From positions 16,858,516 through 16,922,515 of the forward strand of contig OX442317.1 of assembly GCA_949358305.1 (NCBI GenBank): 64,000 nucleotides of DNA. The letters run 5' to 3'. The notes beneath the pieces were generated by a model. It worked only from the letters and a program-made list of their open reading frames with translations, did not search any database and had not been told where the DNA came from. A program made the position numbers and the translations under genes. This document shows, piece by piece, positions 15,085 through 42,572 of the stretch (position 1 is its first letter; every line of letters starts with the position of its first letter). The stretch comes from Strigamia acuminata (Eukaryota; Arthropoda; Chilopoda; Geophilomorpha; Linotaeniidae).

Positions 15085-18000
15085 TCATAGTCGAAAAATC
15101 TTGGAGATTAACGACTTCAAGCGTTCGGAACTCAGCCATTTGGTAAATATGTCCGCAACGTTCTGTTCACCGGATACTTTGTGAAGATCGAAACATCCCG
15201 CCGTATACCACTCTCGTAGCCAATGATACTTGACGCGGATATGCTTGGTCTTTGAATTTTCCACGTCATTCGAAGTAAACTGGATAGCCGCGAGAGCGTC
15301 GGAATAGATGATCGGTCGGGATTGCCTGTCGAGAATCGGAAATTCGGTGTAAATGTTGTCGAGCCAGAAGGATTCCTTTACACATTCCACCAGGGCGATA
15401 AATTCTGCTTCCATGGTGGAACATGCAACCGTTGACTGTTTTCGGCACGACCAGCCAATTGGCACATTTCCGATAAAGTTGATATAGCCGCCGAAACTTA
15501 GAGACGTGGCTGCTTCGCTCGCCCATGACGCATCCGTAAAAGCCCATAGTTGGCTAGAATTACAGCCCGAAAGTTCGATACGATAGTCGATAGTGTTGGC
15601 CACATATTGAAGAACTTGGAGGAGGGCTCGGATATGCGTCTTGTCGTAACAGGTGTTAAATTGGCTTAGCGAAATAACCGAAAATAAGATGTCGGGACGT
15701 GTTCTCGACGCGAGGAACAAGAGTGAACCGATGAGAGACCGGTAAGGAAAGTCCGGTAGATTTTCGGTTGACCCCTTCACGAGCGTTGTCCCTGGTGTGA
15801 CGGGGACCTTCACGAGGCGATTGATAGAGACCTCGAACTTCTTAACGAGCTTTGCAATGTAGGCGCGTTGCGTGATGAAGGTTCGACCAGCATCTCGAAT
15901 GAACTCGACGCCCAATAGTCTCGTGATGGGACCAAGATTAACTATGTCGAATTTGGACGAAATAAGCTGAATGATTCGGGTTAACACGGTGTCGGAAGCG
16001 TAAAACAGTACGATGTCATCGACGTACACCAACATAACGGCACAATTGCCGTAAATGTACACACAATTGCACGCGGGCATCTTCCGAAAACCGAGAGCTC
16101 GAAGCGTTCCATCCAACTTTTCGTACCACTCCCTCCCTGATTGGTGAAGTCCGTAGAGGGATTTAACAAGCAGCCAGACATTTGCGGGGTTCGAACAAGT
16201 TGCACCTGCGGGGATGCGCATGTATACCTTGTGCTTCAGGTCCCCATACAGGTATGCACTTTTGACGTCGAGGTGAGCATCCTTCCATCCTCTGAGGACG
16301 ACTAGAAGACAGAAGAATAGCCGGATCAAAACGAAGTTCACGACCGGACTAAAAACCTCGTCGTAATCAACCCCGATGGTTTGGCGAAAGCCTTGCGCGA
16401 CGAGTCGAGCACGATAACGAGTTATTTCGCCACTTAGGTCCGTCTTCAATTTGAAGATCCATTTACAGCCTAATACTGTAGTCTCGGGTGGCCTCGGAAC
16501 TTCGACGTAGATCTGCCTTTCCTTGAATATTCCTAATTCTTCGTCAATGGCTTCACGCCATTTCGGAGCATCTTGAAATTTCGGAATTTCCGCGTACGAT
16601 GATGGTTCCGTACGGCAAAGATGAGCGGCATGTCGAGGACCGGGAATCGTGGGCAGTGTGTGCTCCATATTGCCGAAAAAGAAAAGTTCTGGATCGTAAG
16701 GGAGATTATTCATCGTGCAGAATTCTTCAACGTCCCGTCTCGAACGTAATCGGAGGTTAGGTTCCGGGAAATAATAGACATCGGTGTCTATACATCCGGG
16801 GCGTTGATCTTTTCGGAGATGTTCCTCTCGAACCCATCGTCTAAAGACTGTATCTCCGCCAACATAGCGCCAGTAGAAAGATGTTTTCCCGGCTGACGGT
16901 GCTGCAACATGAGTAGGGCCAGGAGGCAATGGTGATAAAGCTCCTTGATCGAATATTGGCATCATATGTTGCAAAACATTGCGGCCGTCTCTTCTGCGCG
17001 TTGTGACGAAACGAGTTGGTGAGCCAGGCGGTGAAAGCCCAGGAGAACTAGTTTGAGACGTTTCCGGTGAGATGTGTTGAGACTGAATCTGTTGCAACTC
17101 TGCCGCGTCCGGTTGAATTGCCTCATCAACAATCTGTCCAACATCTTCATCCGTATCCTGTCCTTCCTCTTGATAAAGGATTGGATATGATGCTGATCGT
17201 CCCAAACTCGCAGAATCCGGTAATGCCAGTGCACATGCTTCTATCAACTGACGTTCAGGTGTGTTAAGCGGGGAAATGTGCACCAGTGGGATGGATATCG
17301 ATTTCGAAACTGATCCATTTCCATCATCATCATCGTCATCGTCATCGGATGTACTCGATGAGTCCCCGTCAGTGTCGGCTTTTGGCCAATCCAAATAGTG
17401 GACGTTATCGTCGAATGACACGTGTTGTTGTTGGCTAACATTGGGTTCCTCGAAAATTTGATTGCGATGACCATTTTGACTTCTCAATGTCCTTTTATAA
17501 GATTGATGTTCATCAATGCGTACGTGAATTGATTCCGTTACGCTATTGTCCATAGGATTCCATATGCGGTAACCACGTGTACCTGTGGCGTAGCCTACGA
17601 GGAAACCCTCCCAAGCACGAGGATCAAGCTTTTTGCGTCCCGGTGCAGTAAAGTGCACCCAGCACTTGGATCCAATTTTCCTCAGGTGGCGCAAAGAAAG
17701 AGCACGCTGACGCCAAAGTATGTATGGCACTTGGTTATTCAAACGGGAATGTGGACTTCTATTTTTAATGTAGGCGAAATTGACCGCGAGTTCAGCCCAT
17801 AAACCTTCCGGAAGTTGTGTTTCTTGTATAACAGCTCTGATGTGGTCAACCATTGTCCGGTTAATTCTCTCGGCTGTTCCATTCATCTGGGGGCTTGACG
17901 GATTTGTACGCTGCCCCTGGATCCCCTTTTCCTTCAAGTATTGTTGAAATTCATTGGACATGAATTCGCCGCCCCTATCAGATCGAATGGCTTTAATGCG

Positions 18001-20100
18001 CGTATTTGCAACGCGCTAGACCCTGGCGACGATCTCCTTGAAGCACGAGAAAACTTGGGATTTTTGTGCCAAAGGGGTGATCCAAGTGTACCTCGTCGCG
18101 TCATCGATGACGGTGAAAACGAAGCGAGCGCCCCCAAACGAAGCTACCGGATACGGTCCCCACACGTCCATATGCAAAAGATCAAGGGGCTGAGATGTTG
18201 AGGGGTGCAGATCCGGCTTGTGAGAAGCCCTGACGGATTTCGCAAGGCGGCAATCGTTGCACGGCAATTCTTGCGACACTTCCGCTGGTTCGAGTCCGTA
18301 CACTTTGTCATTATTGGCTAACAACTTCAACGCGTTGGTGTGCAAATGTCCAAGGCGACTATGCCACAAGCCGGTTGCATCTTTCACAGAGGCAGGGTTG
18401 GCAAGAGCTTTCTTCGGGAGCTGGACAGGATTTGGAATAACCTTCTTTTGTGATTGAGAAGGATTACCAGCGGATTGGATGGGAGAAGGAGATGTGACGG
18501 GTGGAGGACTGCTGGGGATATGCTGGAGAGCATTAGCGTAGGAATGGATTGGAGGGTTTAGGTGGATAGGTAAAGATTGTGTTGTAGGTGTAGGATTGAT
18601 GGCGGCCGAAATTGACGTCGGGGCCTCTGTCGCAGATAACGGCGGCATTTGAATCCTAAAATCCGAAATATTCTTTTGCGATGACTTCTGCCTTCTTGGC
18701 TTCGGAATATTCACGAAGTCAACTTCCGTTGTGACAAATGTCTGTACGGGTGATTGCTGAATCATTGGTGAAGTCGTAGTGGCAACAGTTGGATTTGTAC
18801 ACAACCCATCCACGTAGTAAAGTCCTCCTTTCTCCTTTGCTTTCAGAACGGCACTCGTGATGTCCGTTTCATATATATGGACTTCTCCATTGAAAATATG
18901 AATATGGTGACGGGTCTTATCAATTTTGGACACTGAGATTAAATTCGCCTCAAAATTGGGCGCATAAAGAACGTTTGTCAGTGTCACATTGCAGTGAGAA
19001 TTGTCCACACGTGTTTGTAGTTGAACACTTCCTCGACCAGTCACTTGTGACTTCCCTTGGCCCAGTTCGATGTCAAAAGGGACAATATTCACAAAATCGG
19101 AAAACCACGATCGTATGTGGGAAACATGGTCTGTGGCACCACAATCAACTATCCATTCGTTGGATTGCATCAGATGGGCAACAGGACGTTCAACAATTTG
19201 CGGAGCATTCACGAAAAACACCGCGTTGCGAACCGGATGAGAGCTTCCTCTCGGGCGATTGTCCTCGGGTTTGGGAGCCGAGTTCTTGCCACGCTTCTTG
19301 CTTTTGCTGCGAGAACGTTGGAATGTTGCCGTTGGTTGTTGATTCCGGTCGTCACGCTTCGGGTATGGGCACTTGTTAGCGTAGTGACCCATCTCCTGAC
19401 AGTTGAAGCATCTGACTTGTGATAATGGACGACGTGGACGTGAACCTTGGCGAGATTGTTGTGGATTCTGGGCAGACGCGTGAGCTGATGATGAAACATT
19501 ATGTAAACCAACTGATTTGAGGCGAAGATATTCAGAGACCAATTGTTCGGACACTTTAGTCGGCGTAAAGTTAGCTTCAGGCCAGTTATAGATAGCAAAC
19601 GTGGCCTGAGCATATTCTGGAGGCAGTCGATGTAAGTACTGGTAAGCATGATGCTTGTCCGAAACTTCCTCCTTCATATCCCGCAGTTGGCGTACATGGA
19701 GATCGACACGACTGACGAAATCGACCATGTCTTCGTTTGGTTGAAGATGTAGGCCCAAAAATTGCCATCTCATGGCTGCTTGGCGAGCCAGAGAGCTGGG
19801 AGCAAAGATTTTTGACAAAATGTCCCAAGCTTCTTTCGGGGTATTGGCGCTGTCCAGTGTGGAGCGTTTCGCCTCGCTCACGTGGCAATAGATATGTCCC
19901 AACGCCTTGTCCTTTTTTAATTTGTATTTCTCAGTCTCCTTCGGGGTCAGTGTCAATAAATATTCGGCCTCTTTTTCCTCGGTGACGTGTCTCCAGAGGC
20001 CTTCCGACTTTACAATGCACATGGCACGACGCCATGACTCATAGTTGTTGATTCCTAACATCGGACACTTTCCAACCGTTGGCTCCACGTATTTGGACAT
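15085..20100 (-). pseudogene. el2 Copia gag-pol polyprotein, interrupted by one in-frame TAG
   Basis: The start is the ATG at 20100 (MSKYVEPTVGKCPMLGI), aligned with the starts of el3-el5; upstream in-frame codons read into the leader. Domains numbered from this ATG: Gag core; zinc knuckle C231-C234-H239-C244; protease active site D319-C-G, with Cys in place of Ser/Thr; integrase HHCC and first catalytic Asp. The frame then meets TAG at 18016-18018, where relatives have Glu in ARVER. After it, in the same frame, follow IRSDRGGEF (second Asp), NGTAERINRTM (catalytic Glu), an Asp-rich linker, an MBD-like segment (16672-16872), RT with YVDD, and RNase H. No other break is seen. The 1670 sense codons make it full length. 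With the stop it would give only Gag, protease and part of integrase. Confidence 0.93.
16672..16872 (-). other. el2 MBD-like segment between integrase and RT
   Basis: The pattern is W-V-R-E-E-H-L-R-K, then 9 residues, then D-V-Y-Y-F-P, then R-L-R-S, then V-E-E-F, ending L-F-F-F-G. Conserved methyl-CpG-reading positions of the MBD family (first Arg finger, Asp and Tyr of D-V-Y, second Arg finger of R-S) are all present. It lies downstream of the internal stop in this copy. Confidence 0.75.
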
Positions 20101-20293
20101 CTTGACGTGGAAGATTCGCAGATTTCGCTCATCGCGAAAAAATTCAAAGGCGTAGAGAGTGATATGGGCGTAATAGAAGACACTCGTAGCACTACACAAT
20201 CCGACGTCACGATCACAAACACTAACCGAAGCACAAGCACTTTCGAGGCGGAAAACCACAAATTGGAAGCCGATGCTACAATCAGCTGATAAC

Positions 20294-20427
20294 CTAGAGT
20301 GAGTGTCCCCCTAGTGTCCTTTGAGATCGCCTGGGATCGCGGGAATACTAGGTGGCGCAGGGCTCAGCCTCACTCTAGAATACAAATGCAGCTTGGACAG
20401 ACTTGTCCGAAGGGCTGCACCGATTCT
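20294..20427 (-). promoter_or_regulatory. el2 leader: two adjacent conserved RNA hairpins
   Basis: Stem 1: CTAGAGTGAG (20294-20303) with CTCACTCTAG (20369-20378), perfect over 10 bp, and inner CTAGT (20311-20315) with ACTAG (20347-20351). Stem 2: AGAAT with ATTCT (20423-20427), inner TGCAGC (20387-20392) with GCTGCA (20414-20419), and a GGACA/TGTCC tip. Stem sequences differ from el1, el3 and el4 yet remain complementary. Confidence 0.75.
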
Positions 20428-20581
20428 AATAGGGAACCAACCAAAAGCCTTAATATCTATCTTATAATAACAAAGTTTCACGACAGGGAAGGAGAAAAGG
20501 TGATGAATCTCTCGCGTAACGTCACGCGAGCTCGTGATAAAGGCACGAGCGGGTTTTCTCGAAAAACCCGTTAAAAGCGCT

Positions 20582-20605
20582 AATTTGGATTCGAAAATCC
20601 AAATT
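20582..20605 (-). promoter_or_regulatory. el2 leader hairpin 3
   Basis: A perfect 10-bp stem, AATTTGGATT with AATCCAAATT around CGAA. The equivalent place in el4 (42125-42148) has AATTCGGAC with GTCCGAATT around GTTAAT. A further stem, CGGGTTTT with AAAACCCG, lies just before it. Confidence 0.6.
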
Positions 20606-21155
20606 CTTCTCATTAAATGAGGCTCTTCACAAAAATGCGTCGTAAATAATACAAAATCGTCGGTACTGTGTACACTCCGGGGTGAAACACAGCGAGAATC
20701 GTCTCGTTTCTCGTTGAAAACGCTTTTCCGACGTTGTAGAGTCGAAAAATCGATGAAAACTGAAAATAAATAAAAATTCGACTCAAAATTCGCGAGACCG
20801 CGGAATTATGGTCGAAATTAAATGCAGGATCGCGTGGAAAACAGCACAGACTGCTCTGGAACGTCGGTAACGTAGCGGCGACGTTCTTCTCACGGAAATC
20901 GGGCCGGAAATCGACGTAAACCTAAAACGAAAAATTCGCCGCGAAATTCGCGAAAATTCGCTGAATTTTCGGCGAAAATTAGACTGTACGAATAGTGAAC
21001 GTCGTTCCGACGTCGTCAAATCGTTGAATCGTCGTCGTCGAATCGTCGGGAATCGGCGATAACTCTGAAAAACAAAATCGCCGCGAAATTCGCGAAATTC
21101 GCAGAATTCTCGGCGATAATTAAAGCAAACAGAGGCTGGGCAATGCAGGGAAACC

Positions 21156-21173
21156 AACCATCCTCTGCTACCA
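21156..21173 (-). promoter_or_regulatory. el2 primer-binding site, 18-nt match to initiator Met tRNA
   Basis: The plus strand reads AACCATCCTCTGCTACCA, the 3' end of vertebrate-type initiator tRNA with CCA. Two nt separate it from the LTR. The use of the full 3' end argues for standard tRNA priming. Confidence 0.9.
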
Positions 21174-21175
21174 AC

Positions 21176-21752
21176 TGTAGCAGAGGAGAGCGGCGCAAAT
21201 TCGGCGTGAACCGAAACGTGGAAGCGAATTATAACGACGATGGCGTCGTGCTGCACGCACGAACGTGTCGACGACGTTTTGCAAGGAAACGAACGACGGC
21301 CGCGCAGAAAAGCGCTTATATGCCGGAAAGACAAGACTTAACACTTGTTAAAACTATAAAATAAGGTTTAATAATAACATACTTAACAATTGAGTCCAGG
21401 ATTAATGGAAAATGGCGGAGCAGCTCGCTCTCGAGGTGGGCGCCATGTTGACAAGTGGAAAAGTGTACATTGCGACACCTTGTGTCGGTAATTGTAAACA
21501 CATGACATAAAATTAAAGGGAATTAAACATTGTGGCTAAATAAAGCATGATACTCCATGCTTAAAAAACAAATACAATTGTAAACATTGGAAATAAGCTA
21601 TTTGAGATGTAAATAAACATTAAATCATTATATCAAATTATATAAAGACAATTGGGATTTGATATAAAATAAATATCGGAATAAATGATTAGAATGTAAC
21701 ATAATAAGATTCTATGTCTCATCGACATATAAAATGGTCTTTTAGACCAACA
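21176..21752 (-). repeat. el2 5' LTR
   Basis: Same 577-bp sequence as 14289-14865. The TATA box is at 21315-21320 on the sense strand. The U5 end CCTCTGCTACA is complementary to the PBS next to it. Confidence 0.95.
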
Positions 21753-22310
21753 AATTTTGCCCTTCTTCAACGCGAAATCGTATTCGACTCGTTTTCGAGT
21801 CGAATGCGAATTTTGCCCTTCTTCAACGCGAAATCGTATTCGACTCGTTTTCGAGTCGAATGCGAATTTTGCCCTTCTTCAACGCGAAATCGTATTCGAC
21901 TCGTTTTCGAGTCGAGTACGAATTTTGCCCTTTTTCAACGCGAAATTGTATTCGACTCGTTTTCGAGTCGAATGCGAATTTTGCCCTTCTTTAACGCGAA
22001 ATCGTATTCGACTCGTTTTCGAGTCGAATGCGAATTTTGCCCTTCTTCAACGCGAAATCGTATTCGACTCGTTTTCGAGTCGAATGCGAATTTTGCCCTT
22101 CTTTAACGCGAAATCGTATTCGACTCGTTTTCGAGTCGAATGCGAATTTTGCCCTTCTTCAACGCGAAATCGTATTCGACTCGTTTTCGAGTCGAGTACG
22201 AATTTTGCCCTTCTTCAACGCGAAATCGTATTCGACTCGTTTTCGAGTCGAATGCGAATTTTGCCCTTCCTCAACGCGAAATCGTATTCGACTCGCTTTC
22301 GAATCGTATA
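21753..22310 (+). repeat. 56-bp hairpin satellite, copy C left arm, part 2
   Basis: Ten units continuing the 13385-14288 array after el2; AATTT at 21753-21757 is the target duplication. The last unit changes to CTTTCGAATCG and runs into the centre. Confidence 0.95.
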
Positions 22311-23410
22311 CGAGATGGTCGATTTTTGTTTCCCGGACTTTGATTCGTATTCGAGTTGTTACGAGTTCGTATTTTGATCGTATTCGTATTCGAATCGAAT
22401 TCGAATCGTATTCGAATCGAATTCGAATCGTATTCGAATCGAATACGAATCGAATTCGAGTCGTATTCGAGATGGTCGATGATTTCCACTCGCTCGTATA
22501 CGCGTTGTATACGAGCTCGTATTTTGATCGTAATTGTAAACGAATCGTTTACAAGTCGTATACAAGTTGTATACGACGTGTATACACCTCGTATACAAAC
22601 AAAGTTTGTGAAAACACAATTTCCAAATAAGACGTATGTGACTACTATGTGTTTTCATGTCGTAGTAAGTATCCGGTGGATTTTCCAAACTTCGTTCGTA
22701 TACGAGGTGTATACACGTCGTATACAACTTGTATACGACTTGTAAACGATTCGTTTACGATTACGATCAAAATACGAGCTCGTATACAACGCGTATACGA
22801 GCGAGTGGAAATCATCGACCATCTCGAATACGACTCGAATACGATTCGAATACATCTCGAATACATCTCGAATACGAGTCGTACGAGTCAAAGTCCGGGA
22901 ACGGGTCATCGACTATCTCGTATTCGATTCGGATGCGACTCGAATTCGAGTCGTATTCGAGATGGTCGATGATTTCCACTCGCTCGTATACGCGTTGTAT
23001 ACGAGCTCGTATTTTGATCGTAATCGTAAACGAATCGTTTACAAGTCGTATACAAGTTGTATACGACGTGTATACACCTCGTATACGAACAAAGTTTGTG
23101 AAAACACAATTTCCAAATAAGACGTATGTGACTACTATGTGTTTTCATGTCGTAGTAAGTATCCGGTGGATTTTCCAAACTTCGTTCGTATACGAGGTGT
23201 ATACACGTCGTATACAACTTGTATACGACTTGTAAACGATTCGTTTACGATTACGATCAAAATACGAGCTCGTATACAACGCGTATACGAGCGAGTGGAA
23301 ATCATCGACCATCTCGAATGCGACTCGAATACGATTCGAATACATCTCGAATACATCTCGAATACGAGTCGTACGAGTCAAAGTCCGGGAACGGGTCATC
23401 GACTATCTCG
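22311..23410. repeat. Copy C centre: nested GTATAC/ATTCGA inverted repeats, duplicated
   Basis: A centre unit of about 490 bp occurs twice (about 22470-22950 and 22960-23410). Each has an outer half rich in TATTCGAG/CTCGAATA, then TCGTATAC...GTATACGA inverted repeats, around a unique core of about 85 bp containing AATTTCCAAATAAGACGTAT. The same core occurs at 43725-43800 and 57525-57605. Confidence 0.85.
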
Positions 23411-26553: not shown

Positions 26554-26602
26554 ACCTTTTCGCGGATTGGCTTCCGCGAAATCCGCATTTCGGGGGTGAC
26601 TA

Positions 26603-27156
26603 TGTAGCTCTGTGGCGCAATAAATGCACGATAAATCGTGCTGGAAGCGTGAAAATAACGTGCTCACGGCAATGCATGAGCTGGAAAAATTGCCGTGATG
26701 CGTAAACGCGAGTTCGGGTCTGTATTGGGCCAGAAAACGCGTGTGCCACACTTATAACGACGTGTGGCACATAAACTAATACTGATAATTAACAAAATAC
26801 ACTTTAATTCGAGAAAACTTACATAATTGATCCAAAAACCATTGGAAAACATAGAGAAACACACTGGCTGTGTGCGCGGCCATTTGCAAAGTGCCCAGAG
26901 ACATCTGGTGGCCGAAAATAGAAACAATAAGTAGAAATACACACAGAATAGAGGATGCATGATGCCAGATGGATAAGACACATCTAAAAGGCATCATGCA
27001 TTCCCTTTACATAGAAACTAAGGAAAAACATAAGAAACAATACTAAATTACCCCGAATAAGAAAAGATAACCGATGGATAATAAAATAAACATTTCAAAG
27101 TCATTTCACATCGAAAAACGATTTAATTAGGTGAAAAGCGGTTCCAAAGTCCAACA
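26603..27156 (-). repeat. el3 3' LTR
   Basis: TGTAGCTCTGTGG...TCCAACA on the plus strand. TATA box (sense TATAAG) at 26751-26756. Its U5 end, sense CAGAGCTACA, resembles the tRNA end less closely than in el2, el4 and el5. Confidence 0.95.
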
Positions 27157-27202: not shown

Positions 27203-30200
27203 TTACTTCGAGACGAAAATGCGTGATAATAAATTCCGGAGGCGCTCTGAACTGAGCCACTTGGTGAAAATGTCGGATACATTTATCTCACCCGGAATCT
27301 TGCGGAGTTCGAAACAACCGGCAATATGCCACTCACGAAGCCAGTGAAACTTCACTCGAATATGTTTCGTTTTCGAGTTCTCGATGTCGTTGTTCGTGAA
27401 CTGAATCGAGGCGAGGGCATCGGAAAATATGATCGGTTTCGATAATCGACGTAAAGGCGGAAATACTTGATAAATACTGTCCAACCAGTATAATTCTTTG
27501 ACGATTTCGACTAATGCCACAAATTCGGCTTCCATAGTGGAGCAGGCAACGCTGGTCTGTTTCTTGCAGCTCCAGCCAATGGGCACACTTCCGATGTAGA
27601 CAACGTATCCGCCGAATGATCTCGATGTAGCAATGTCGGAGGCCCAAGAGGCGTCTGTGCAACCCCACAGTTGACTCGAATCGCATTTCGAAAGTTCGAT
27701 GGAATAATCACTCGTATTGGCCACATATCGAAGAACTTGAAGCAAACACTTAATGTGGCTTTGGTCGTAGCAGTTGTTGTACTGCGAGAGAGCGATGACC
27801 GAGTATAAGATATCGGGACGAGTGCGAGAAGCGAGAAAAAGTAATGATCCGATGAGCGACCGATACGGGAAATCCGGAAGATTGTCCAACGAGCCTTTCA
27901 CGAGCGTGGTTCCCGGTGTAACAGGCACTTTAATGAGTGCATCGGACGAAACATTAAACTTTTTGAGGAGTTTATCGATGTAATTGCGTTCAGTCATGAA
28001 GACTTTCCCGTCACGACGCTCGAATTCCACTCCGAGCAACTTGGTTATCGGGCCGAGGTTGACGATTTTGAACTTGCTCGTGATCAATGCAAGAATACGG
28101 TCTCGGATGTTCTCCGACGCGTAAAATAAAACGATGTCGTCAACGTAAACTAACATGATGGCCGAATGTCCAAATGCGTAAACGCAATTACAAGCCGGAA
28201 ATTTCTGGAATCCGAGTCCGGTTAACGTTTCATCGAGCTTTTGGTACCACATGCGCCCCGACTGATGAAGACCGTAAAGCGATTTGGTCAACAACCAGAC
28301 GTTGTCGGGCGAGGAGCATGTGGCACCGGCGGGAATCCGCATGTAGATTTCGTGGTCGAGGTCGCCGTAGAGGTAGGCACATTTTACGTCGAGATGAGTA
28401 TCCCTCCATCCTAACAAGACGACTAGAAGACAGAAGAAAAATCGGATGAGCACGAAGTTAACTACCGGACTAAAAACTTCATCGAAATCAACGCCCATTG
28501 TTTGGCGGAAACCTTGTGCGACAAGTCGGGCACGGTATCGATGAATTGTCCCGGTGGCGTCAGATTTTAACTTGAAAATCCACTTGCAACCTAGGACTGT
28601 CTTATCCGGTGGACGCGGAACCTCTTTGTAAACCTCGCGCTTCTTGAAAGTAGAAAGCTCCTCGTCGATTGCTTCGGTCCATTTCGGTGCTTCGGGCAAT
28701 TTAACTGCTTCGGCATATGTGGCCGGTTCCCGAAAACACATGAAGACACGATGAGGCGATGGTGGAACATAGGGCATGTGGTGTTCCAAATTGCCAAAAA
28801 AGAAAATAGACTCGTCATACGGTAGCCGATGTGCGAAACAATAAGCGGCGATATCGTTCTGCGACCGCAAGCGGACACCGTGTTCCGGATAATAATAAAC
28901 GTCGACCTTGATCTTTCCCGGGATTTGATCTTTCCGGAGATGTTCCTCTCTCCTCCATCCGCTGAAGGGCGAAACGCCGCCAATAAAACTCCAAGGGCAA
29001 TGAAGAGCACGTAAAGGGGCCAAATTAGGCGTACCCGGAGCGGGAATAGGCAAGGCGGCCGCTTCGTCAAGAAGGTCGTCGTCAAAGTCAGAACCCTGTA
29101 CAGACATCGCCGTGGTATCGTCAAGACATGGAAGAGTTGGGTAAGAGATCGAACGTCGCAGCTGGGGTAAACGCGTGGAACGTATGGTTGGAGAAAATTG
29201 GCCATGTCCTGCAACGGTCGCTGCAGTAACGGAGTCATCGGCAGCGGTCACGGAGCCATCAGGAATAGCCTCACCATCCAGAGGCACGCTTGCAGCGGCG
29301 GACGGGGCAAATGAAGCGAAAGACGGAGCGGTCGAAGCGACAGACTGAGCACGACTGATAATTCCATCATCGTCACTACTGCCGGCGGAAGAATCGTTAT
29401 CCGAATCGCGACGTCGTCGAGGCCAAGGTTGAGTTGGGAAATTATCATGAAAAGTGACACGCGACGGGGTGTGGCCACGAGCAGGCTCCTCCATGGGTGG
29501 AGCATTGTCATCCGGATCCGGAACATAAAAGGGCGAGCGTTTAAAGTTCTGCCGTTCATCGATTTGGACGTGGACAGTTTCGGTGACAGTGTTCGTAGCC
29601 GGATTCAAAACTCGATAACCGCGAGTACCAGAAGCGTAGCCGACGAGAAATCCCTCCCACGCTCGAGGATCCAGTTTGTTGCGTCCAGGCGCGGTGAAGT
29701 GCACCCAGCACTTGGAACCGATTTTACGAAAATGTCTGACGGAGAGAGCTCGCTGGCGCCACAAAATGTACGGGATTTCGTCGTTGAGCTTCGAATGCGG
29801 ACTTCGGTTCTTGATGTACACGAAAGTCACAGCAAGTTCGGCCCAAAGCGTATGCGGAAATCCGGTTTCGGATCTAACGGAGCGGAGATAATCGCCCATC
29901 GTCCGGTTCAGGCGTTCGGCGACTCCGTTCATTTGTGGGCTCGCGGGATTGGTCCGTTGTGCAACAATGCCCTTGTCGGCGAGATAACGGTCAAAATCCC
30001 TTGAAATGAATTCTCCTCCACGGTCGGTACGAATCGTTTTGATCCGGCAATCGGCTATACGTTCAACACGGGAAACAAAGTCTTTGAAGGTAGCAAAAAC
30101 ATCGGATTTACGGGCGATCGGGAAAAGCCAGGCATATCTGGTGGCGTCGTCGATAATGGTGAAGGCGAAATTAGCGCCACCAATGGAAGGCAGTCTCGAC

Positions 30201-32110
30201 GGGCCCCAGACGTCCATGTGAAGCAATTCAAGCGGTTTCGTGGTCGAAGGCGCGGAAATCGACTTATGCGGAGCACGCGTAGACTTGGCGACACGGCACG
30301 TGTTGCATGAAAGTTCCTGTCGAACAGCAGCTGGATCAAGTCCGTAAACCTGGGAGTTAGCAGCCAAAGTCCGCATGGCTTTGGTGTGCAGGTGACCCAG
30401 TCTGCTGTGCCACAATCCCGTGGCATCCGCGACGTTGACCAACGTAGTAACCGGTTTAAGAGGTGATGTTGCATTTGACTTAGCAACAGGAGGAGGTGAT
30501 GTTGCGTTTGACTTGGCAACGGGAAGAGGAGATTTGAGGGCATTGGAATACATCCGGATCTGTTGAGGTTGGGATCCGGGAATAGGAGCAGGACTGGTAG
30601 GAAAAAATGAAGGGACCAGTAAGGTGTTCGAGGAGACGGGCAAGCGGAAATCGGTCATATTGTCAGCCGACTTCGTCTTAGCCTTGTTGGAAGACTTGGG
30701 CAATGCGGGAAAGTCCTCTTCCTTCGTCACTAGAGTGGTCGGTGTCGGAGTCGGAGGCAACGATGAAACGGGTGGAGAACTCGAAACATTAGTCGGAGCG
30801 GCGAATGACGAGATAAGCCCATCCACGAAATAAAGTCCAGACTTCTGTTTCGCCCGAAGAACACTTAGTTTGATGTCCGTTTCATACGTGTGCAATTCCG
30901 AGTTGTGAATGTGGATGTGATGTCCGCATTTATCAATCCGAGAAACCGAGATAAGATTGGCGCCGAAGTCCGGTGCGAATAAGACGTCGCGTAGCATTAC
31001 GGTGCATTCGCAGCCATCGATGAGCGACTTGACCGGAACATCACCTTTGCCTGTGACCTTCGAACTGCCTTGTCCCAGCTCGATGTTGAACGGGACAACG
31101 GAAACAAAGTTCGTGAACCACGCTTTAACGTGCGACACGTGGTCGGTTGCGCCGCAATCAACGATCCATTCGTGGGATTGGAGGAAATGCACAGTCGGTG
31201 CTGTAACAACTGGTGGCGCAGACAAGAGGTACGCAGCATCACGTCGCGGGCGGGAAATTTCACGGCTTTGACCACCGGGTTGCTGAGAATTGGTTCCCTT
31301 CCGTCGTCGGTTTTTGCTGCGAGATCGACCTTGTAGTGCAGCTGCCGGTTGCTGTTCCTTCGATTGTCGGCGCGGAAGAGGGCATTTGTTCGCGTAGTGG
31401 CCCATCTGATCGCAATTGAAACAACGAATTTGCGATAGTGGACGAGGATTGCGAGATTGACTGCGGTTGCGATTGTCCGCGGCGAATGCCGACGTCTTCT
31501 TCGTATTGTGATCGGATTTCGACTTCAAACGAAGGTATTCCGACAAGAGCTGTTCGGAGACTTTGGCCGGGGTAAAATTCGCCAACGGCCAATGGTAAAT
31601 GGAGAACGTTGCCTGGTCGTAATCCGCCGGAAGAAAATCGAGGTACTGGTAGGCCTGATGTCGAGGGAGAATGTCCTCTCCGATGTCCTTCAATTGACGA
31701 ACCATCAGGTCTACACGCCCCAGGAAATCGGGCATCTCCTCGTTCGGCTCCAGTTTCAATTGCAAGAACTGTCGGCGCATAGCTGCCTGACGGGCGAGTG
31801 AACTGGGGGCGTAGATCTTGGCGAGCATGTCCCATTGTTCCTTCGGTGTCTCGCAGCCATCGAGTGCCGACTGTTTGGCTTCGGATACCAAACAATAAAT
31901 GGTTCCTAGGGCTCGTTCCTTGCGACGTTGATATTTGCGTTTCTCCTTGTCATCCGCCGTCTTCAGAAAATCCTCCTCGCCGTCTTCTGTGACGTGATGC
32001 CACAGGCCTTCACTTTTGAGCAACATCTTAACTGTTCGTTGCCATTGTTCGTAGTTGCCGGTCGTCAGGACCGGTACACGTCCCGACGTTGCTTCGGAAG
32101 CCTTTTGCAT
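27203..32110 (-). CDS. el3 Copia gag-pol polyprotein with MBD-like domain, intact
   Basis: The ATG at 32110 (MQKASEATSGRVPVL) aligns with the el4/el5 start; the longer open frame begins with TTG only. 1635 residues. Domains: Gag core (about 1-210), zinc knuckle C230-C233-H238-C243, protease D318-C319-G320, a linker with the motif E-E-D-F-P-A-L-P-K, integrase HHCC and catalytic D633-D696-E732 (DD35E), a GKGY-like region (P-R-A-W-E-G-F-L-V-G-Y), an acidic linker, an MBD-like domain (about 1039-1108), RT with YVDD at 1322-1325, and RNase H starting at T-D-A-S-W-A (D1486). It packages RNA, matures the polyprotein, reverse-transcribes and integrates the element. No stop or frameshift was found. 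It has the closest MBD match of the family, with G-W-R-R and P-E-H-G conserved. Confidence 0.96.
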   Translation of the reverse strand: MQKASEATSGRVPVLTTGNYEQWQRTVKMLLKSEGLWHHVTEDGEEDFLKTADDKEKRKYQRRKERALGTIYCLVSEAKQSALDGCETPKEQWDMLAKIYAPSSLARQAAMRRQFLQLKLEPNEEMPDFLGRVDLMVRQLKDIGEDILPRHQAYQYLDFLPADYDQATFSIYHWPLANFTPAKVSEQLLSEYLRLKSKSDHNTKKTSAFAADNRNRSQSRNPRPLSQIRCFNCDQMGHYANKCPLPRRQSKEQQPAAALQGRSRSKNRRRKGTNSQQPGGQSREISRPRRDAAYLLSAPPVVTAPTVHFLQSHEWIVDCGATDHVSHVKAWFTNFVSVVPFNIELGQGSSKVTGKGDVPVKSLIDGCECTVMLRDVLFAPDFGANLISVSRIDKCGHHIHIHNSELHTYETDIKLSVLRAKQKSGLYFVDGLISSFAAPTNVSSSPPVSSLPPTPTPTTLVTKEEDFPALPKSSNKAKTKSADNMTDFRLPVSSNTLLVPSFFPTSPAPIPGSQPQQIRMYSNALKSPLPVAKSNATSPPPVAKSNATSPLKPVTTLVNVADATGLWHSRLGHLHTKAMRTLAANSQVYGLDPAAVRQELSCNTCRVAKSTRAPHKSISAPSTTKPLELLHMDVWGPSRLPSIGGANFAFTIIDDATRYAWLFPIARKSDVFATFKDFVSRVERIADCRIKTIRTDRGGEFISRDFDRYLADKGIVAQRTNPASPQMNGVAERLNRTMGDYLRSVRSETGFPHTLWAELAVTFVYIKNRSPHSKLNDEIPYILWRQRALSVRHFRKIGSKCWVHFTAPGRNKLDPRAWEGFLVGYASGTRGYRVLNPATNTVTETVHVQIDERQNFKRSPFYVPDPDDNAPPMEEPARGHTPSRVTFHDNFPTQPWPRRRRDSDNDSSAGSSDDDGIISRAQSVASTAPSFASFAPSAAASVPLDGEAIPDGSVTAADDSVTAATVAGHGQFSPTIRSTRLPQLRRSISYPTLPCLDDTTAMSVQGSDFDDDLLDEAAALPIPAPGTPNLAPLRALHCPWSFIGGVSPFSGWRREEHLRKDQIPGKIKVDVYYYPEHGVRLRSQNDIAAYCFAHRLPYDESIFFFGNLEHHMPYVPPSPHRVFMCFREPATYAEAVKLPEAPKWTEAIDEELSTFKKREVYKEVPRPPDKTVLGCKWIFKLKSDATGTIHRYRARLVAQGFRQTMGVDFDEVFSPVVNFVLIRFFFCLLVVLLGWRDTHLDVKCAYLYGDLDHEIYMRIPAGATCSSPDNVWLLTKSLYGLHQSGRMWYQKLDETLTGLGFQKFPACNCVYAFGHSAIMLVYVDDIVLFYASENIRDRILALITSKFKIVNLGPITKLLGVEFERRDGKVFMTERNYIDKLLKKFNVSSDALIKVPVTPGTTLVKGSLDNLPDFPYRSLIGSLLFLASRTRPDILYSVIALSQYNNCYDQSHIKCLLQVLRYVANTSDYSIELSKCDSSQLWGCTDASWASDIATSRSFGGYVVYIGSVPIGWSCKKQTSVACSTMEAEFVALVEIVKELYWLDSIYQVFPPLRRLSKPIIFSDALASIQFTNNDIENSKTKHIRVKFHWLREWHIAGCFELRKIPGEINVSDIFTKWLSSERLRNLLSRIFVSK
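28787..28996 (-). other. el3 MBD-like domain between integrase and RT
   Basis: Pattern: G-W-R-R-E-E-H-L-R-K, then GKIKVDVYYYPEHGV, then R-L-R-S-Q-N-D-I-A-A-Y, ending F-F-F-G-N. Against human MeCP2 the G-W, second Arg, finger Arg 111, D121-V122-Y123, G129, Arg 133 and S134 all align with one single-residue gap. Known MBDs read methylated CpG through these residues; that this one does so is inference. Confidence 0.8.
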
Positions 32111-32267
32111 GATTGCGGAGGAAAAATCGTCGAAAAATTTCCGAAAATCGAAGCACAATTCACCAAATCGAAGAACTTTTCACTCGAAGCACTTTCGATG
32201 CACGCACAAACGGTGTTCGAAGCGGAAAAACCTCGACGGGGAGCCAATGCTAAAATTGGCTGAGAAC

Positions 32268-32824: not shown

Positions 32825-33378
32825 TGTAGCTCTGTGGCGCAATAAATGCACGATAAATCGTGCTGGAAGCGTGAAAATAACGTGCTCACGGCAATGCATG
32901 AGCTGGAAAAATTGCCGTGATGCGTAAACGCGAGTTCGGGTCTGTATTGGGCCAGAAAACGCGTGTGCCACACTTATAACGACGTGTGGCACATAAACTA
33001 ATACTGATAATTAACAAAATACACTTTAATTCGAGAAAACTTACATAATTGATCCAAAAACCATTGGAAAACATAGAGAAACACACTGGCTGTGTGCGCG
33101 GCCATTTGCAAAGTGCCCAGAGACATCTGGTGGCCGAAAATAGAAACAATAAGTAGAAATACACACAGAATAGAGGATGCATGATGCCAGATGGATAAGA
33201 CACATCTAAAAGGCATCATGCATTCCCTTTACATAGAAACTAAGGAAAAACATAAGAAACAATACTAAATTACCCCGAATAAGAAAAGATAACCGATGGA
33301 TAATAAAATAAACATTTCAAAGTCATTTCACATCGAAAAACGATTTAATTAGGTGAAAAGCGGTTCCAAAGTCCAACA
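32825..33378 (-). repeat. el3 5' LTR
   Basis: Identical by reading to 26603-27156 (554 bp). Transcription would start here and run leftward. Confidence 0.95.
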
Positions 33379-35939: not shown

Positions 35940-36426
35940 TGTAGCAGAGGAGTGCGCGAAATCAGTTGAATAACTGACGGGAAGCGTGTTTGCAAAGTGC
36001 GAAGCAACGCAAAATGGCGTCGTGCTTCGCGCACGAACGTTCGCGATTCGTTTCGTGAAAGCGCGCGGCCTAATGCCGCTTATATGCGCTGGAAAACTTG
36101 CACAGAAGGTGCTTAAACATAAACACAAAGCTTAAATAAAATATACACTTTAATAAAACGAAAATATACATTACACATTGGAGAAATAGCTAGAAGACAC
36201 ACACCTGTGTGTTCCGCCATGTTGGATTCAGATAACAGTGGTGGTGGCACTCTGGTGCCGGAAATTAGCATTAATTGAGAACAAATCACTTGGTGATAGA
36301 ATAAATCATATGAGAACAAGACAAGAGTATGGAATTACATATGAGACATCGCTAAATAAAAGGTAACATCGAAATCAATAGAGAATAAACATATTCATCG
36401 ATAAAAACACGGTCTTTAGACCAACA
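35940..36426 (-). repeat. el4 3' LTR
   Basis: TGTAGCAGAGG...GACCAACA on the plus strand. Sense start TGTTGGTCTAAAGACC carries a short palindrome; TATA box (sense TATAAG) at 36079-36084; CCGCCATGTTGG (YY1-like) near 36215. Confidence 0.95.
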
Positions 36427-36437
36427 AATCCCCTCTT
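36427..36437 (-). promoter_or_regulatory. el4 polypurine tract
   Basis: Sense AAGAGGGGATT abuts the LTR start. Confidence 0.85.
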
Positions 36438-36635
36438 CGATGAAAATATTTATCAGGGGACAAGACAAACGTATACTGGAATTACAGATGATCATTGGCG
36501 AGAAAAGAAAATAATAAATTCGGATCATCGAGCCGGGTACTGTCGTGGTTATCACTTAACTAAGCTCGGAATTCCCACAGAAACTTGATGATCCTCGAAA
36601 TCGGGTAAAACTAAATCAGGAATGTCACGATAAAG

Positions 36636-39600
36636 TTATGCTCGGAAGATCTTCGAAATGAGTGACCGCAAACGTTCGGATGAGAGCCATTTCGTAAAAA
36701 TGTCTGCGATATTCACTTCGGATGCAACTTTTCGAAGATCGAAGACTCCTGTCGTATACCACTCCCTGAGCCAATGATACCTCACGCGAATGTGTCGAGT
36801 CTTCGCGTTCTCAATGTCGTTAGACGTGAATTGGATAGCGGCCAGGGCATCGGAGTAAACAACAGGTCGAGCCAATCGATTGAGAATCGGGAAATCGGTG
36901 TACACGGAGTCCAACCAGAAAAGCTCCTTTACACACTCTACCAGGGCGATAAATTCCGCTTCCATAGTAGAGCATGCAACGGTCGACTGTTTTCGACAGG
37001 ACCAGCCGATAGGGACGTTGCCGATGTACACGATGTATCCTCCGAAACTCAAGGAGGTTTCCGGGTCGCTCGCCCACGATGCGTCGGTGAAAGCCGATAA
37101 CTGGCTCGATGTGCAGCCAGATAACTCGATGCAAAGGTCTGCAGTATTTGCCACGTACTGCAGAACCTGTAGAAGGGCGCGGATGTGGGTTCGGTTGTAG
37201 CACGTGTTGTATTGTGCTAAGGCGATCACGGAGTATAAGATGTCGGGACGAGTTCTCGATGCCAAAAACAGTAGTGACCCGATTAATGATCGATAGGGGA
37301 AATCTTCAAGATTTTCGGTGGACCCTCTGACGAGTGTCGTTCCTGGGGTCACTGGCACCTTGACTAGGTTATTCGTTGACGTCCCGAACTTCTTAACCAT
37401 TTTGGCGATGTATGCACGTTGGGTTATGAACGTGCGCCCGGCATCACGGATGAATTCGACGCCTAGGAGTTTGGTGATCGGGCCGAGGTTCACGATGTCG
37501 AATTTCGAGCTGATTAGTCGAATCAGTTGAGTGAAGACATTGTCGGATGCGTAAAATATAACAATATCGTCCACGTAGACCAGCATAACAGCTGTGCTTC
37601 CGAAAACGTATACACAGTTGCATGCCGGCATTCTTCGAAATCCGAGGGCCCGTAATGTTTCGTCGAGTTTCTCGAACCATTGTCTCCCCGACTGGTGGAG
37701 GCCGTAAAGTGACTTGAGGAGCAGCCACACGTTGTTTGGATCGGAGCATGTGGCACCCGCGGGGATTCGCATGTAGACTTTGTGTTTTAACTCCCCGTAC
37801 AGGTACGCACCTTTCACGTCGAGGTGGGCGTCCTTCCAACCACGTAATACGACGAGAAGACAGAAAAACAGACGAATCAATATGAAGTTCACGACTGGGC
37901 TAAACACCTCATCAAAATCGACTCCGAGGGTTTGATAAAAACCTTGCGCTACTAAGCGTGCTCGGTATCGAGTGACGGTTCCGGCTGCATCGGTTTTAAG
38001 TTTAAAAATCCACTTGCAGCCAAGAATAGTGGTGTCGGGTGGTCGGGGAACTTCTTCATAGATCTCTCGCTCTTTGAACATATCGAGCTCCTCTCCAATT
38101 GCTTCACGCCATTTCGGAGCGTCGTTGAACTTGGGAATTTCGGCGAATGAAGCCGGCTCGGTTCGGCATAGATGAGCCGCATGACGAACACCCGGAAGAG
38201 TTGGTAACTTATGTTCGAGATTACCGAAGAAAAACAGTCCGGGGTCGTAATCGATGTTGTTCAACATGCAATACTCCTCGATGTCGTGATAAGATCTTAG
38301 GCGGATCTTCGGAGTTGGAAAATAATAAACGTCGATTAAGATTTTTCCGGGCTTCTGATCCTTTCTTAGATGTTCCTCGCGTACCCATTCACGACACTCT
38401 CCATCTCCACCGACAAATCGCCACATGTGAGTTGTGTGGCGAGCGGTTGCCGCAGCGACTTCGGTTCCCAATACCGGAGCTGGTGACATGGGATCGGGGT
38501 CGAATATCTGCAACGTATGCGTTGCAGGATCACCAGCACGTTGTTGACGACGTGTTGTGATAAATCTCGGTGTCGGTATCGGCGTCTCACGTGGGAGAGG
38601 AGGCGCGGTCGAACGTTGAGGTGAGGGTGGTGCTGATGGGCGAGGCGATGGTGGGGCAGATTGACGAGGTGTCGATGGAGGTAATTGATGCGACGATGGT
38701 TCCGCTGACGCGTCTATGAGTTCGGACGTCTCGGGATAAACCGATAATTCATCCATTTCTCGTATGTCGTGATCAGTATCACGTTCCTCTTCATATGAAA
38801 TGTGATGAGACTGTCGAAGGGATGCGGAACCCGGAGGTAATGTCGCACATAAATCCAGCAAGACTCGTTCTGGAGTCGTCGGAGGTGGAATCTGGATATG
38901 CGGAAACGCAGGAGGTGTGTGCATCGATGCAGATGCCGTTGACACACATTCGGAATCGTTCGCAGAATGTTCCGACGCCTCGGAGTCGGATCCCCTCGGC
39001 CATTGATGGTATTGGAGATTATCATCGAATGTGACGGATTGCTGTCCAGGGCCGGTGAACGATTCTTGAGGTCGTTGAGACGAAATTTTAATCGATTTCC
39101 GATAGGATTGGCGTTCATCGACTTTGACATGAATCGACTCGTAGACTTTGTTGTCAGTTGGGTTCCAAATTCTGAATCCACGGGTCCCTGTGGCGTAGCC
39201 GACTAAATACCCCTCCCAGGCCCGGGGATCCAGCTTCTTCCGGCCTGGTGCGGTGTAGTGCACCCAGCACTTTGAGCCGACTTTGCGGAGGTGTCGTAAC
39301 GATAGGGCTCTCTGTCGCCAAAGGATGTATGGGACCTGATTATTAAGTCGAGAATGAGGGCACCGGTTCTTGATGTATCCGAACGTAACTGCGAGCTCGG
39401 CCCAGAGCGCATCTGGAAGTTTGGTTTCCGAAATGATCGCGCGGACGTTGTCGAGCATTGTCCTGTTTATGCGCTCGGCCGTGCCATTCATCTGTGGCGA
39501 TGACGGGTTCGTCCGTTGCCCTTGAATGCCTTTATCCTGAAGATATCGGAGAAATTCGTTTGACATGAACTCTCCGCCTCGATCCGTCCGAATCGCTTTT

Positions 39601-41693
39601 ACTCGAGAGTCTTGAATTCTTTCCACTCGAGCAACAAAGTCCTTGAAGGTTGCGAAAACTTGTGATTTCTGCGCTAGCGGTATAATCCAGCAATAGCGTG
39701 TCGCGTCGTCGATGACAGTAAGGACGAAACGCGCTCCTCCAAACGATGGGATAGGGGCGGGCCCCCAAATATCCATGTGGAGGAGGTCCAAAGGCTTCGT
39801 TGTCGAGGGGTTCGGATCGGGCTTGTGAGAGGCTCTAATCGATTTGGCGATCCGACAATCGTTGCAGGCCAATTCCCTGTTGACTTCCCCTGGTTGCATT
39901 CCGTAGACTTGGTCGTTTGCGGCCAACAACTTCATTCCCTTGGTGTGAAGGTGGCCGAGTCGGCTGTGCCATAAGCCGGTGGCGTCCTTGACGGAAGCTG
40001 GATTGGCAATGACCTTCTTTTTCAATTGAGACGGATTGCCGAGGGGAGGAAAGGAATTTGCGTTCTGAATCGCGGTTGGATTTGCCGTTGGGATTGACTG
40101 CAAGGCACCCGCATAGGATGGAGGAGTGGTCAGGTTATTATGGATTTGCGTGGGAATGGGAGGAGGAATCGGATTGGTTTGAGGAGCTTGTTGTACAGAA
40201 ATTTGCTTTACATGTTCAATAGCTGGCATCTCAATCCGGAAATCCGTTATTTCTCGCTGTTTCGACCCTTTTCCCTGTCTATGCTTCGGAATGTTCGGGA
40301 AATCTTCTTCGGTTGTCACGTACATTTGCGCTGGCGACGCGGGAATCGTCGGTTGTGTCGTAGGAGAGACCGTCGTCGCAAATGTCGGATTCGAACATAA
40401 ACCGTCCACATAGTAAAGACCACCTCTCTCCTTTGCACGGATGAGAGGGCTGCGAATGTCCGATTGGTAAACATGAATCTCACTATTGAAAATGTGGATA
40501 TGATGTCGAGCTTTATCAATCTTGGACACGGAGATCAAGTTTGCCTCGAAATTCGGCGCATATAAGACATTGGTCAAATTAACGGTGCATCGCGTCTTGT
40601 CAATCGCTAGGAGAAGTCGAACCGTTCCTTTGCCCGTTACTTGGGACTTGCCCTGTCCTAACTCAATGTCAAATGGGATCACATCGGTGAATTCGGTGAA
40701 TCCTGCACGCACGTGAGACACATGGTCTGTGGCGCCGCAATCCAGTATCCATTCATTGGATTGCATGAAATGGGCTACTGGACGTTGGACAACTTGCGGC
40801 GCATTGACAAAGAATGTCCCCTCTCGATGTGGAAGAGAGTTTTCACGGGGTCTGGTATTATTGACCTTCGCGGCAGCGTTTTTGTTACGCCTGCGACTCT
40901 TGCTGCGAGAATTACGTTGCAGCGTGACCGTGGGTTGATTCTGATTTTGTCGAGGTGGACGTGGACATCGGTTCGCATAATGTCCGAATTGATCACAATT
41001 AAAACATTTCACGGTTGATAAATCACGTGGACCAGATTTATTACGCGGCCGAAATTGTCCTTTAGAAGCATGAGCTGACGATTGAGATGATCCGAGCAGC
41101 CCAGTTGATTTAAGGCGCATATGTTCGGAAATTAACTGTTCGGCGACATCCTTCGGTGTAAACTGGGGATCTGGCCAATGGTAGATCGCGAAGGTAGCCT
41201 GCGCGTATTCAGGCGGCAAACACTTTAAGTATTGATACGCGTGATGAATTGGGCTAATAATTTCATTAACATCCCTTAATTGTCGCACGTAATTGTCCAC
41301 GCGGGCAATAAAATCTGGCATGTCCTCATTGGGTTGAAGCTGCAGATTTAAGAAGTCCCAGCGCATGGCCGCTTGACGGGCCCTGGAACTTGGCGCGTAG
41401 ATCTTAGCGAGTGTCTCCCACGCCTCCTTTGGCGTGTTGCAAGTCTCAAGAACTGTGCGCTTGCTGGGGCTCACGTGGATGTAAATGTGCCCTAATGCTT
41501 TGTCCTTTTTTATCATGTAACGATCGAGTTCCTTGGGCGTCAAGGTTGCAATGTGTTCCGCCTCCTTGGCCTCTGTCACGTGTCTCCAGAGCCCCTCGGA
41601 TTTTAACAAGAACTGCATCGCCATCCGCCAGTCCTCGTAATTTCCGACACCGAGGACCGGAACTAGAGCACTCGAAGCTGCTGCTTTTTGCAT
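36636..41693 (-). CDS. el4 Copia gag-pol polyprotein with MBD-like domain, intact
   Basis: 1685 residues from the ATG at 41693. Gag core 1-210; zinc knuckle C230-C233-H238-C243; basic patch about 262-275; protease D318-C319-G320; linker with E-E-D-F-P-N-I-P-K (462-470) and S-Y-A-G-A-L (526-531); integrase H576/H581/C610/C613 and D641, D704, E740 (35 residues between the last two); P-R-A-W-E-G-Y-L-V-G-Y (823-833); Ser/Pro-rich linker to about 1080; MBD-like domain 1089-1158 with R1110, D1121, Y1123 and R1133; RT with Y-V-D-D 1373-1376; RNase H D1537, E1578, D1615. No break found. The length is above the common 1300-1450 of Copia because of the two linkers and the extra domain. Confidence 0.96.
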   Translation of the reverse strand: MQKAAASSALVPVLGVGNYEDWRMAMQFLLKSEGLWRHVTEAKEAEHIATLTPKELDRYMIKKDKALGHIYIHVSPSKRTVLETCNTPKEAWETLAKIYAPSSRARQAAMRWDFLNLQLQPNEDMPDFIARVDNYVRQLRDVNEIISPIHHAYQYLKCLPPEYAQATFAIYHWPDPQFTPKDVAEQLISEHMRLKSTGLLGSSQSSAHASKGQFRPRNKSGPRDLSTVKCFNCDQFGHYANRCPRPPRQNQNQPTVTLQRNSRSKSRRRNKNAAAKVNNTRPRENSLPHREGTFFVNAPQVVQRPVAHFMQSNEWILDCGATDHVSHVRAGFTEFTDVIPFDIELGQGKSQVTGKGTVRLLLAIDKTRCTVNLTNVLYAPNFEANLISVSKIDKARHHIHIFNSEIHVYQSDIRSPLIRAKERGGLYYVDGLCSNPTFATTVSPTTQPTIPASPAQMYVTTEEDFPNIPKHRQGKGSKQREITDFRIEMPAIEHVKQISVQQAPQTNPIPPPIPTQIHNNLTTPPSYAGALQSIPTANPTAIQNANSFPPLGNPSQLKKKVIANPASVKDATGLWHSRLGHLHTKGMKLLAANDQVYGMQPGEVNRELACNDCRIAKSIRASHKPDPNPSTTKPLDLLHMDIWGPAPIPSFGGARFVLTVIDDATRYCWIIPLAQKSQVFATFKDFVARVERIQDSRVKAIRTDRGGEFMSNEFLRYLQDKGIQGQRTNPSSPQMNGTAERINRTMLDNVRAIISETKLPDALWAELAVTFGYIKNRCPHSRLNNQVPYILWRQRALSLRHLRKVGSKCWVHYTAPGRKKLDPRAWEGYLVGYATGTRGFRIWNPTDNKVYESIHVKVDERQSYRKSIKISSQRPQESFTGPGQQSVTFDDNLQYHQWPRGSDSEASEHSANDSECVSTASASMHTPPAFPHIQIPPPTTPERVLLDLCATLPPGSASLRQSHHISYEEERDTDHDIREMDELSVYPETSELIDASAEPSSHQLPPSTPRQSAPPSPRPSAPPSPQRSTAPPLPRETPIPTPRFITTRRQQRAGDPATHTLQIFDPDPMSPAPVLGTEVAAATARHTTHMWRFVGGDGECREWVREEHLRKDQKPGKILIDVYYFPTPKIRLRSYHDIEEYCMLNNIDYDPGLFFFGNLEHKLPTLPGVRHAAHLCRTEPASFAEIPKFNDAPKWREAIGEELDMFKEREIYEEVPRPPDTTILGCKWIFKLKTDAAGTVTRYRARLVAQGFYQTLGVDFDEVFSPVVNFILIRLFFCLLVVLRGWKDAHLDVKGAYLYGELKHKVYMRIPAGATCSDPNNVWLLLKSLYGLHQSGRQWFEKLDETLRALGFRRMPACNCVYVFGSTAVMLVYVDDIVIFYASDNVFTQLIRLISSKFDIVNLGPITKLLGVEFIRDAGRTFITQRAYIAKMVKKFGTSTNNLVKVPVTPGTTLVRGSTENLEDFPYRSLIGSLLFLASRTRPDILYSVIALAQYNTCYNRTHIRALLQVLQYVANTADLCIELSGCTSSQLSAFTDASWASDPETSLSFGGYIVYIGNVPIGWSCRKQSTVACSTMEAEFIALVECVKELFWLDSVYTDFPILNRLARPVVYSDALAAIQFTSNDIENAKTRHIRVRYHWLREWYTTGVFDLRKVASEVNIADIFTKWLSSERLRSLISKIFRA
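38220..38429 (-). other. el4 MBD-like domain between integrase and RT
   Basis: W-V-R-E-E-H-L-R-K, then G-K, D-V-Y-Y-F-P, R-L-R-S, D-I-E-E-Y and L-F-F-F-G-N in MBD order and spacing. The loop Gly before R-L-R-S seen in el3 is not kept (T-P-K-I). Confidence 0.75.
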
Positions 41694-41852
41694 CGTGAAT
41701 CGCTAGACAAAACACAACGCGGAGAACACAAAGGCTCAGAGAATGGCACTGATGTGGTACACTTGATCGGAGCACTGCACTGAAGCACGTCACTAGCACT
41801 TTCAAGGCGGAAAACCACGAATTGGGAGGCAATGCTACAATTGCCTGATAAC

Positions 41853-41986
41853 CTGTGGTGAGTGTCCCCCTGACGTCCTTTACGACCACCTGGGGTCACG
41901 GGAATGTCAGGTGGCGCAGGGCTCAGCCTCACCACAGAATACAATGACGCGGTGCTCGGAATCGAGCGTAGGGCGCCAAGGATTCT
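41853..41986 (-). promoter_or_regulatory. el4 leader: two adjacent conserved RNA hairpins
   Basis: Stem 1: CTGTGGTGAG (41853-41862) with CTCACCACAG (41928-41937), perfect; inner CCTGAC (41869-41874) with GTCAGG (41906-41911). Stem 2: AGAAT (41936-41940) with ATTCT (41982-41986), inner TGACGC with GCGCCA and a GCTC/GAGC tip. An alternative CCACCT/AGGTGG pairing overlaps the inner stem. Confidence 0.75.
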
Positions 41987-42571: not shown

Positions 42572-42572
42572 A

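Follow-up and report, generated by a model that had tools for sequence, protein, structure and literature searches.

The Copia elements of the window

The window analysed here is a stretch of 64,000 nucleotides from Strigamia acuminata that begins 130,580 bases before the end of contig C5, which by its length (16,989,096 bases) is chromosome 4. It holds four Copia polyproteins, el2 to el5, all on the minus strand, and the analysis confirms that each carries a methyl-CpG-binding domain (MBD) between integrase and reverse transcriptase (RT). The original prediction, made from the letters alone, had placed an MBD-like domain at this point; in el3 it is borne out by Pfam (30.6 bits), by the match to MBD2 in the PDB, by the predicted fold and by the contact residues. 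The Pfam order in el3 is gag, zinc knuckle, Pol_BBD, gag_pre-integrs, rve, SH3-like, MBD, RVT_2, and el2, el3 and el4 each have the gag-integrase-RT order, long terminal repeats (LTRs) and 5-bp target duplication of Ty1/copia elements (Table 1). The coding region of el2 consists of two open reading frames (ORFs), 15085-17961 and 18016-20259, with the break inside the integrase core. For the assembly as a whole (qcStrAcum1.1), PMC10556566 gives 237,534,282 bp in 158 scaffolds, the longest of 66,985,994 bp; judged by length, contigs C12 and C13 are the X and Y chromosomes.

Table 1. Coordinates of the Copia elements, their domains and the satellites (positions within the window).
Feature	Position	Strand	Remarks
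el3 polyprotein ORF	27203..32158	-	1651 aa, Ty1/copia; Pfam and ORF reading
el3 MBD	28787..28996	-	residues 1055-1124; between integrase/SH3-like and RVT_2; Pfam, PDB, fold
el3 3' LTR	26603..27156	-	554 bp; 0 mismatches to 5' LTR
el3 5' LTR	32825..33378	-	554 bp
el3 5-bp target duplication	26598-26602 and 33379-33383		GACTA
el2 whole element	14289..21752	-	identical 577-bp LTRs; target duplication AATTT
el2 MBD-like segment	16672..16872	-	PF01429 14.9 bits, under cut-off; 45 % identity to el3 (110-column piece)
el4 whole element	35940..43059	-	identical 487-bp LTRs, 35940-36426 and 42573-43059; target duplication GTTAC
el4 polyprotein ORF	36636..41693	-	1685 aa
el4 MBD-like segment	38220..38429	-	PF01429 14.6 bits, under cut-off; 48 % identity to el3 (110-column piece)
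el5 polyprotein ORF	58461..63530	-	1689 aa; LTRs not delimited, right LTR may extend beyond window end
el5 MBD-like segment	60057..60266	-	PF01429 14.6 bits, under cut-off; 46 % identity to el3 (110-column piece)
56-bp satellite array interrupted by el2	13386..22313		halves 13386-14290 and 21753-22313; 13.8-14.1 CpG/100 bp (measured 13273-14280, 21760-22440)
53-bp satellite	2542..6291		GC 0.65, 17.2 CpG/100 bp (measured 2453-6900)

Identity of the domain

Against el3, the Pfam MBD profile (PF01429; cut-off 21) scores 30.6 bits with a 70-aa piece (E 2.6e-7) and 24.5 bits with the whole protein. A PDB sequence search with the el3 piece has MBD2 as its top match (E 6.6e-4, one single-residue gap), and at E <=10 MBD or TAM proteins occupy 19 of the 20 rows, the last being an antibody chain. 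The predicted el3 model has the MBD fold: Foldseek ranks 1-26 are all MBD or TAM domains (among the best 50 of 137 matches), and the contact residues are kept. Chance resemblance to an MBD is ruled out by the Pfam score, the PDB match and the predicted fold.

The Pfam search that the original prediction had proposed for el3 thus gives a match there. But el3 alone of the four window copies passes the curated cut-off: the pieces from el2, el4 and el5 reach 14.6-14.9 bits, and in their whole ORFs Pfam finds no MBD at E <=1. The domain is called in these three because they are 45-48 % identical to el3 and because there are stronger relatives in the genome (five peptides, 42-52 bits). The order of motif residues reported for el2, el3, el4 and el5 is present in all four. 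In their alignment 45 of 110 columns are invariant, including W24, R26, R31, D42, Y44, R54 and S55 (numbering of the el3 piece). These Arg, Asp, Tyr and Ser residues have known roles in methyl-CpG contact, and the contact set (two Arg fingers, Asp, Tyr, Ser) is kept in 4/4 window copies.

A four-row profile searched against the PDB gave E-values of 0.088 and above, with F-actin capping protein level with MBD2. The capping protein alpha subunit scores weakly both in the Pfam search of the pieces (E 0.019) and with this profile (E >=0.11, MBD2 0.088), and is judged a chance match because it is absent from the displayed rows of the fold lists. A protein database search with el3 residues 1030-1200 returned one protein from 261 candidates, a Copia polyprotein whose precomputed Pfam domains do not include an MBD.

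Relatives in the genome and the contact tyrosine

At least 150 sequences in the genome are related to the el3 MBD (best 150 of 1240 candidates); counting el3 itself, 43 of these 150 share 100 % identity over 70 residues. A genome search with PF01429 likewise gives at least 150 matches, all listed ones above the cut-off. Some lineages keep the contact tyrosine, with motif cores DVYYY (el3), DVYYF (el2, el4, el5), DIYYF, DIYYY, DIYFY and DVYFF; others have DVVYF, DVIYI, DVWYI or DVMYF. Among 18 distinct cores Tyr occupies the position ten times, Val four times, Trp twice, and Ile and Met once each. The pattern behind this tally fixed the Asp, one basic residue and the Ser, leaving free just the Tyr position and the first basic residue; it misses the Tyr lineages L011/L012 and L014/L066, and the loci are a non-random sample. 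A K was read twice where the first Arg is expected, and both cases are taken as register ambiguities. Three Tyr-less peptides score 45.9-47.2 bits against the Pfam MBD, and in the families that match such peptides dozens of the copies listed have an ORF about 1560-1640 aa long.

The nearest MBD is MBD2 for el3 and for the Tyr-to-Val lineage; for the L009 lineage it is MBD4, which is only slightly ahead of MBD2. Several element lineages have an FDF motif after the helix, as do MBD2 and MBD4. LTRs were found in one copy of the Tyr-to-Val lineage; this copy (L196:902-7921, on contig C11) seems to have TA...TA LTR ends and the target duplication ATCTA, where el2-el4 end in TG...CA.

Host genes with related domains are also present. 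The MBD2/3-like exons read DVFYY, and when put together they give a match to MBD2 with E 1.5e-30; the gene (L055:4256-4619, minus strand) has an apparent intron within the MBD and Phe at the contact-tyrosine position. A short host-like exon at L056:4053-4226 (minus strand; 110-aa frame, BAZ2/TAM-type by eye) is among the 150 PF01429 matches listed.

Insertion age and selection

Both LTRs are identical in el2, el3 and el4 (577, 554 and 487 bp), so these insertions are recent. The dN/dS ratio (nonsynonymous to synonymous substitution rate) is 0.18-0.19 for the MBD (the three of six pairs with finite dS) and 0.05-0.08 for RT (three pairs with finite dS), although dS is below 1 in the el4-el5 pair only and the remaining ratios are rough; over all six pairs, MBD dN is 1.8-7.7 times RT dN. 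With dN/dS well below 1 and dN higher in the MBD than in RT, the domain is therefore under selection, yet less constrained than RT.

el4 and el5 differ synonymously at 149 codons and in other ways at 26, el4's stop codon being counted among the 26. The two ORFs look mosaic: near-identical stretches alternate with patches of synonymous change, as by template switching among subfamilies. The patches include codons 1100-1303, which contain the MBD.

Target sites of the el3 family

Out of the 43 identical copies of el3 type, 20 from ten chromosomes supplied both flanks. Matching 5-bp target duplications were found in 18 of the 20 (the other two were dropped), a share partly built into the method, as the search for LTR ends demanded a matching 5-bp duplication. 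The control was a Copia family without an MBD (ORF 1368 aa; 18 of 20 copies usable, from chromosomes 1, 2, 3 and 5 only); its copy L155, the one copy read, has no MBD by Pfam, and identical 215-bp LTRs. Twenty random sites of 700 bp came from ten of the eleven chromosomes, at least two of them lying within transposable elements (TEs).

The sites occupied by the el3 family are rich in CpG. Mean values for the 18 flanks are GC 0.510, 9.20 CpG/100 bp and an observed/expected (o/e) CpG ratio of 1.33, as against 0.356, 3.06 and 0.96 for the control flanks and 0.415, 4.60 and 0.98 for the random sites. The CpG density is higher than in the control (p 6.4e-6) and than at random sites (p 0.001; Mann-Whitney), and the o/e ratio is higher than in the control (p 0.0028). 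Flanks in four of the 18 insertions match the window's 53-bp satellite; among the others there is one match to the coding stretch of el3 itself, one to that of el4 (75 % identity), and one to a sequence 90 % like window positions 9202-9792. The difference in CpG density remains when the four satellite cases are removed (p 5e-5 against the control, 0.011 against random), and also when the two Copia-like cases are removed with them (p 1.8e-4 and 0.025).

In a wider count of positions on chromosome 1, the part beyond 60 Mb contains 20 of 37 MBD matches but 5 of 60 RVT_2 matches treated as MBD-less (among the matches listed; the RVT_2 set is the best 150 matches, and MBD-less status is confirmed for L155 only). 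The MBD match C3:20309085, one of the 150 listed, was excluded from this count as a host BAZ2-like exon by eye. Ten pairs of flanks taken at the el4 offset had LTR ends in 0/10; the loci belong to a different family, whose identity to the el3 piece is 80 %, and enter no count.

Satellites and other sequences in the window

The array into which el2 has inserted belongs to a 56-bp satellite with a CpG o/e of 2.75-3.07 (three stretches measured). This one satellite occurs in six stretches, in both orientations (13386-14290, 21753-22313, 23408-24507, 43179-43491, 47954-48326 and 56698-57294). The 53-bp satellite also repeats at higher order, with periods of 357 and 475 bp.

Another Copia fragment, with gag and Pol_BBD in an ORF of 464 aa, lies at 7284-8678 (minus strand). 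At 44818-46962 (plus strand) there is a LINE-like (long interspersed nuclear element) ORF with endonuclease and RVT_1, and upstream an overlapping 374-aa ORF with no Pfam match. Blocks at 33728-35080 and 54372-55724 match each other at a spacing of 20,644 bases (105 nt at 100 %, the other blocks related), with relatives at 49123-51313.

Discussion

An MBD-bearing Copia family was thought undescribed in the original prediction. This was mistaken: de Mendoza, Pflueger and Lister reportedly described in 2019 (Genome Res 29:1277) an arthropod retrotransposon family of Copia type, named CopiaMBD, with a captured functional MBD that is said to bind CpG-dense methylated regions, such elements accumulating in CpG-dense regions of S. 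maritima. A paper citing that work (PMC7343188) assigns a TE family from it to S. maritima. The 2019 description rules out a new family here. By architecture and host, the window elements belong with the published one: they have a retrotransposon polyprotein that bears an MBD in an arthropod, S. acuminata, of the same genus as S. maritima. The CpG-dense insertions reported for that family relative to other LTR elements also recur, in the el3 family relative to one non-MBD Copia family. The present material differs in species and in its satellite insertions, non-MBD Copia control and variation at the tyrosine position, though some overlap with the content of the 2019 paper may exist.

Two other comparisons can be made. 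With animal MBD2/3 and MBD4/MeCP2 (PF01429) the S. acuminata domain shares the fold, the Arg fingers, the Asp and Tyr and, in several lineages, the FDF motif; unlike those proteins, it sits inside a retrotransposon polyprotein and has lost the Tyr in several lineages. The integrase chromodomain of Ty3/gypsy chromoviruses, which reportedly directs insertion to heterochromatin (Gao 2008), is likewise a chromatin reader at the integrase, but reads a histone mark, in another superfamily and another gene order.

In S. maritima, according to published work, about 30 % of CGs are methylated, and among 719 annotated TEs a fraction of 0.758 belongs to the highly methylated group. The S. acuminata genome has PF00145 exons (11 matches, DNMT1/3 and DNMT2 taken together). 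It is plausible that the MBD reads host methylation.

The MBD probably tethers integration of these Copia elements to CpG-dense, and probably methylated, DNA. The domain would stay joined to, or near, integrase in the pre-integration complex; it would bind CpG-dense, probably methylated chromatin such as satellites and other TEs, and so may bring insertions to sites where they do little harm to the host. That the MBD could steer integration had been suggested in the original prediction, and the high CpG content of the sites where the el3 family has inserted, compared with those of one non-MBD Copia family, speaks for it.

Several observations limit these conclusions. The o/e difference becomes weaker without the satellite cases (p 0.024 against the control, 0.056 against random) and is no longer clear once the Copia-like cases are also removed (p 0.054 and 0.11). 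The weak PDB result of the four-row profile counts against el2, el4 and el5 standing alone. Finally, RVT_1 matches (Gypsy- or LINE-type) also crowd the end of chromosome 1 (14/25 beyond 60 Mb), and the concentration there is therefore heterochromatin-like accumulation and not a mark of the MBD.

A first alternative, which we consider unlikely, is that the MBD is a DNA or chromatin module without methylation selectivity, recognising CpG-dense DNA itself, so that the target bias is one of CpG or GC. Vertebrate MBD3, which has Phe where other MBDs have the tyrosine, recognises dense CpG in this way; the host's MBD2/3-like exon has Phe there too, 8 of the 18 motif cores carry Val, Ile, Trp or Met instead of the Tyr, and el3-family flanks are raised in GC as well as CpG. 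Yet Tyr and the other contacts are retained in all four window copies, and o/e, not only density, is raised at the target sites (1.33 against 0.96), an argument that loses some force without the satellites. Less probable still is an MBD that has no role in targeting and serves some other step (packaging, nuclear retention, shielding the element's own CpGs from silencing), CpG-rich sites simply being those where insertions survive: the crowding of RVT_1-type elements at the chromosome 1 end fits this, but the non-MBD Copia family, its LTRs identical in the one copy read, has the opposite composition (GC 0.356 against 0.415 at random sites), and the LTR identity of el2-el4 leaves scant time for purging.

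Returning to tethering by the MBD, a tentative extension is that the domain diversified after its capture: lineages in which the two Arg fingers and the Asp persist while Val, Ile, Trp or Met takes the place of Tyr might each guide their element to a CpG state or class of repeat of its own, and the el3 family would insert by preference into CpG-dense satellites. This seems doubtful as yet.

S. acuminata is another species in which MBD-bearing retrotransposons can be studied, and it has a chromosome-level assembly from HiFi reads; the targeting claim is therefore directly testable by comparing insertion sites one by one with their methylation. The residues that have naturally taken the place of the contact tyrosine provide a ready series for a more basic question: is it selectivity for methylation, or mere CpG binding, that lies behind the location of these elements?
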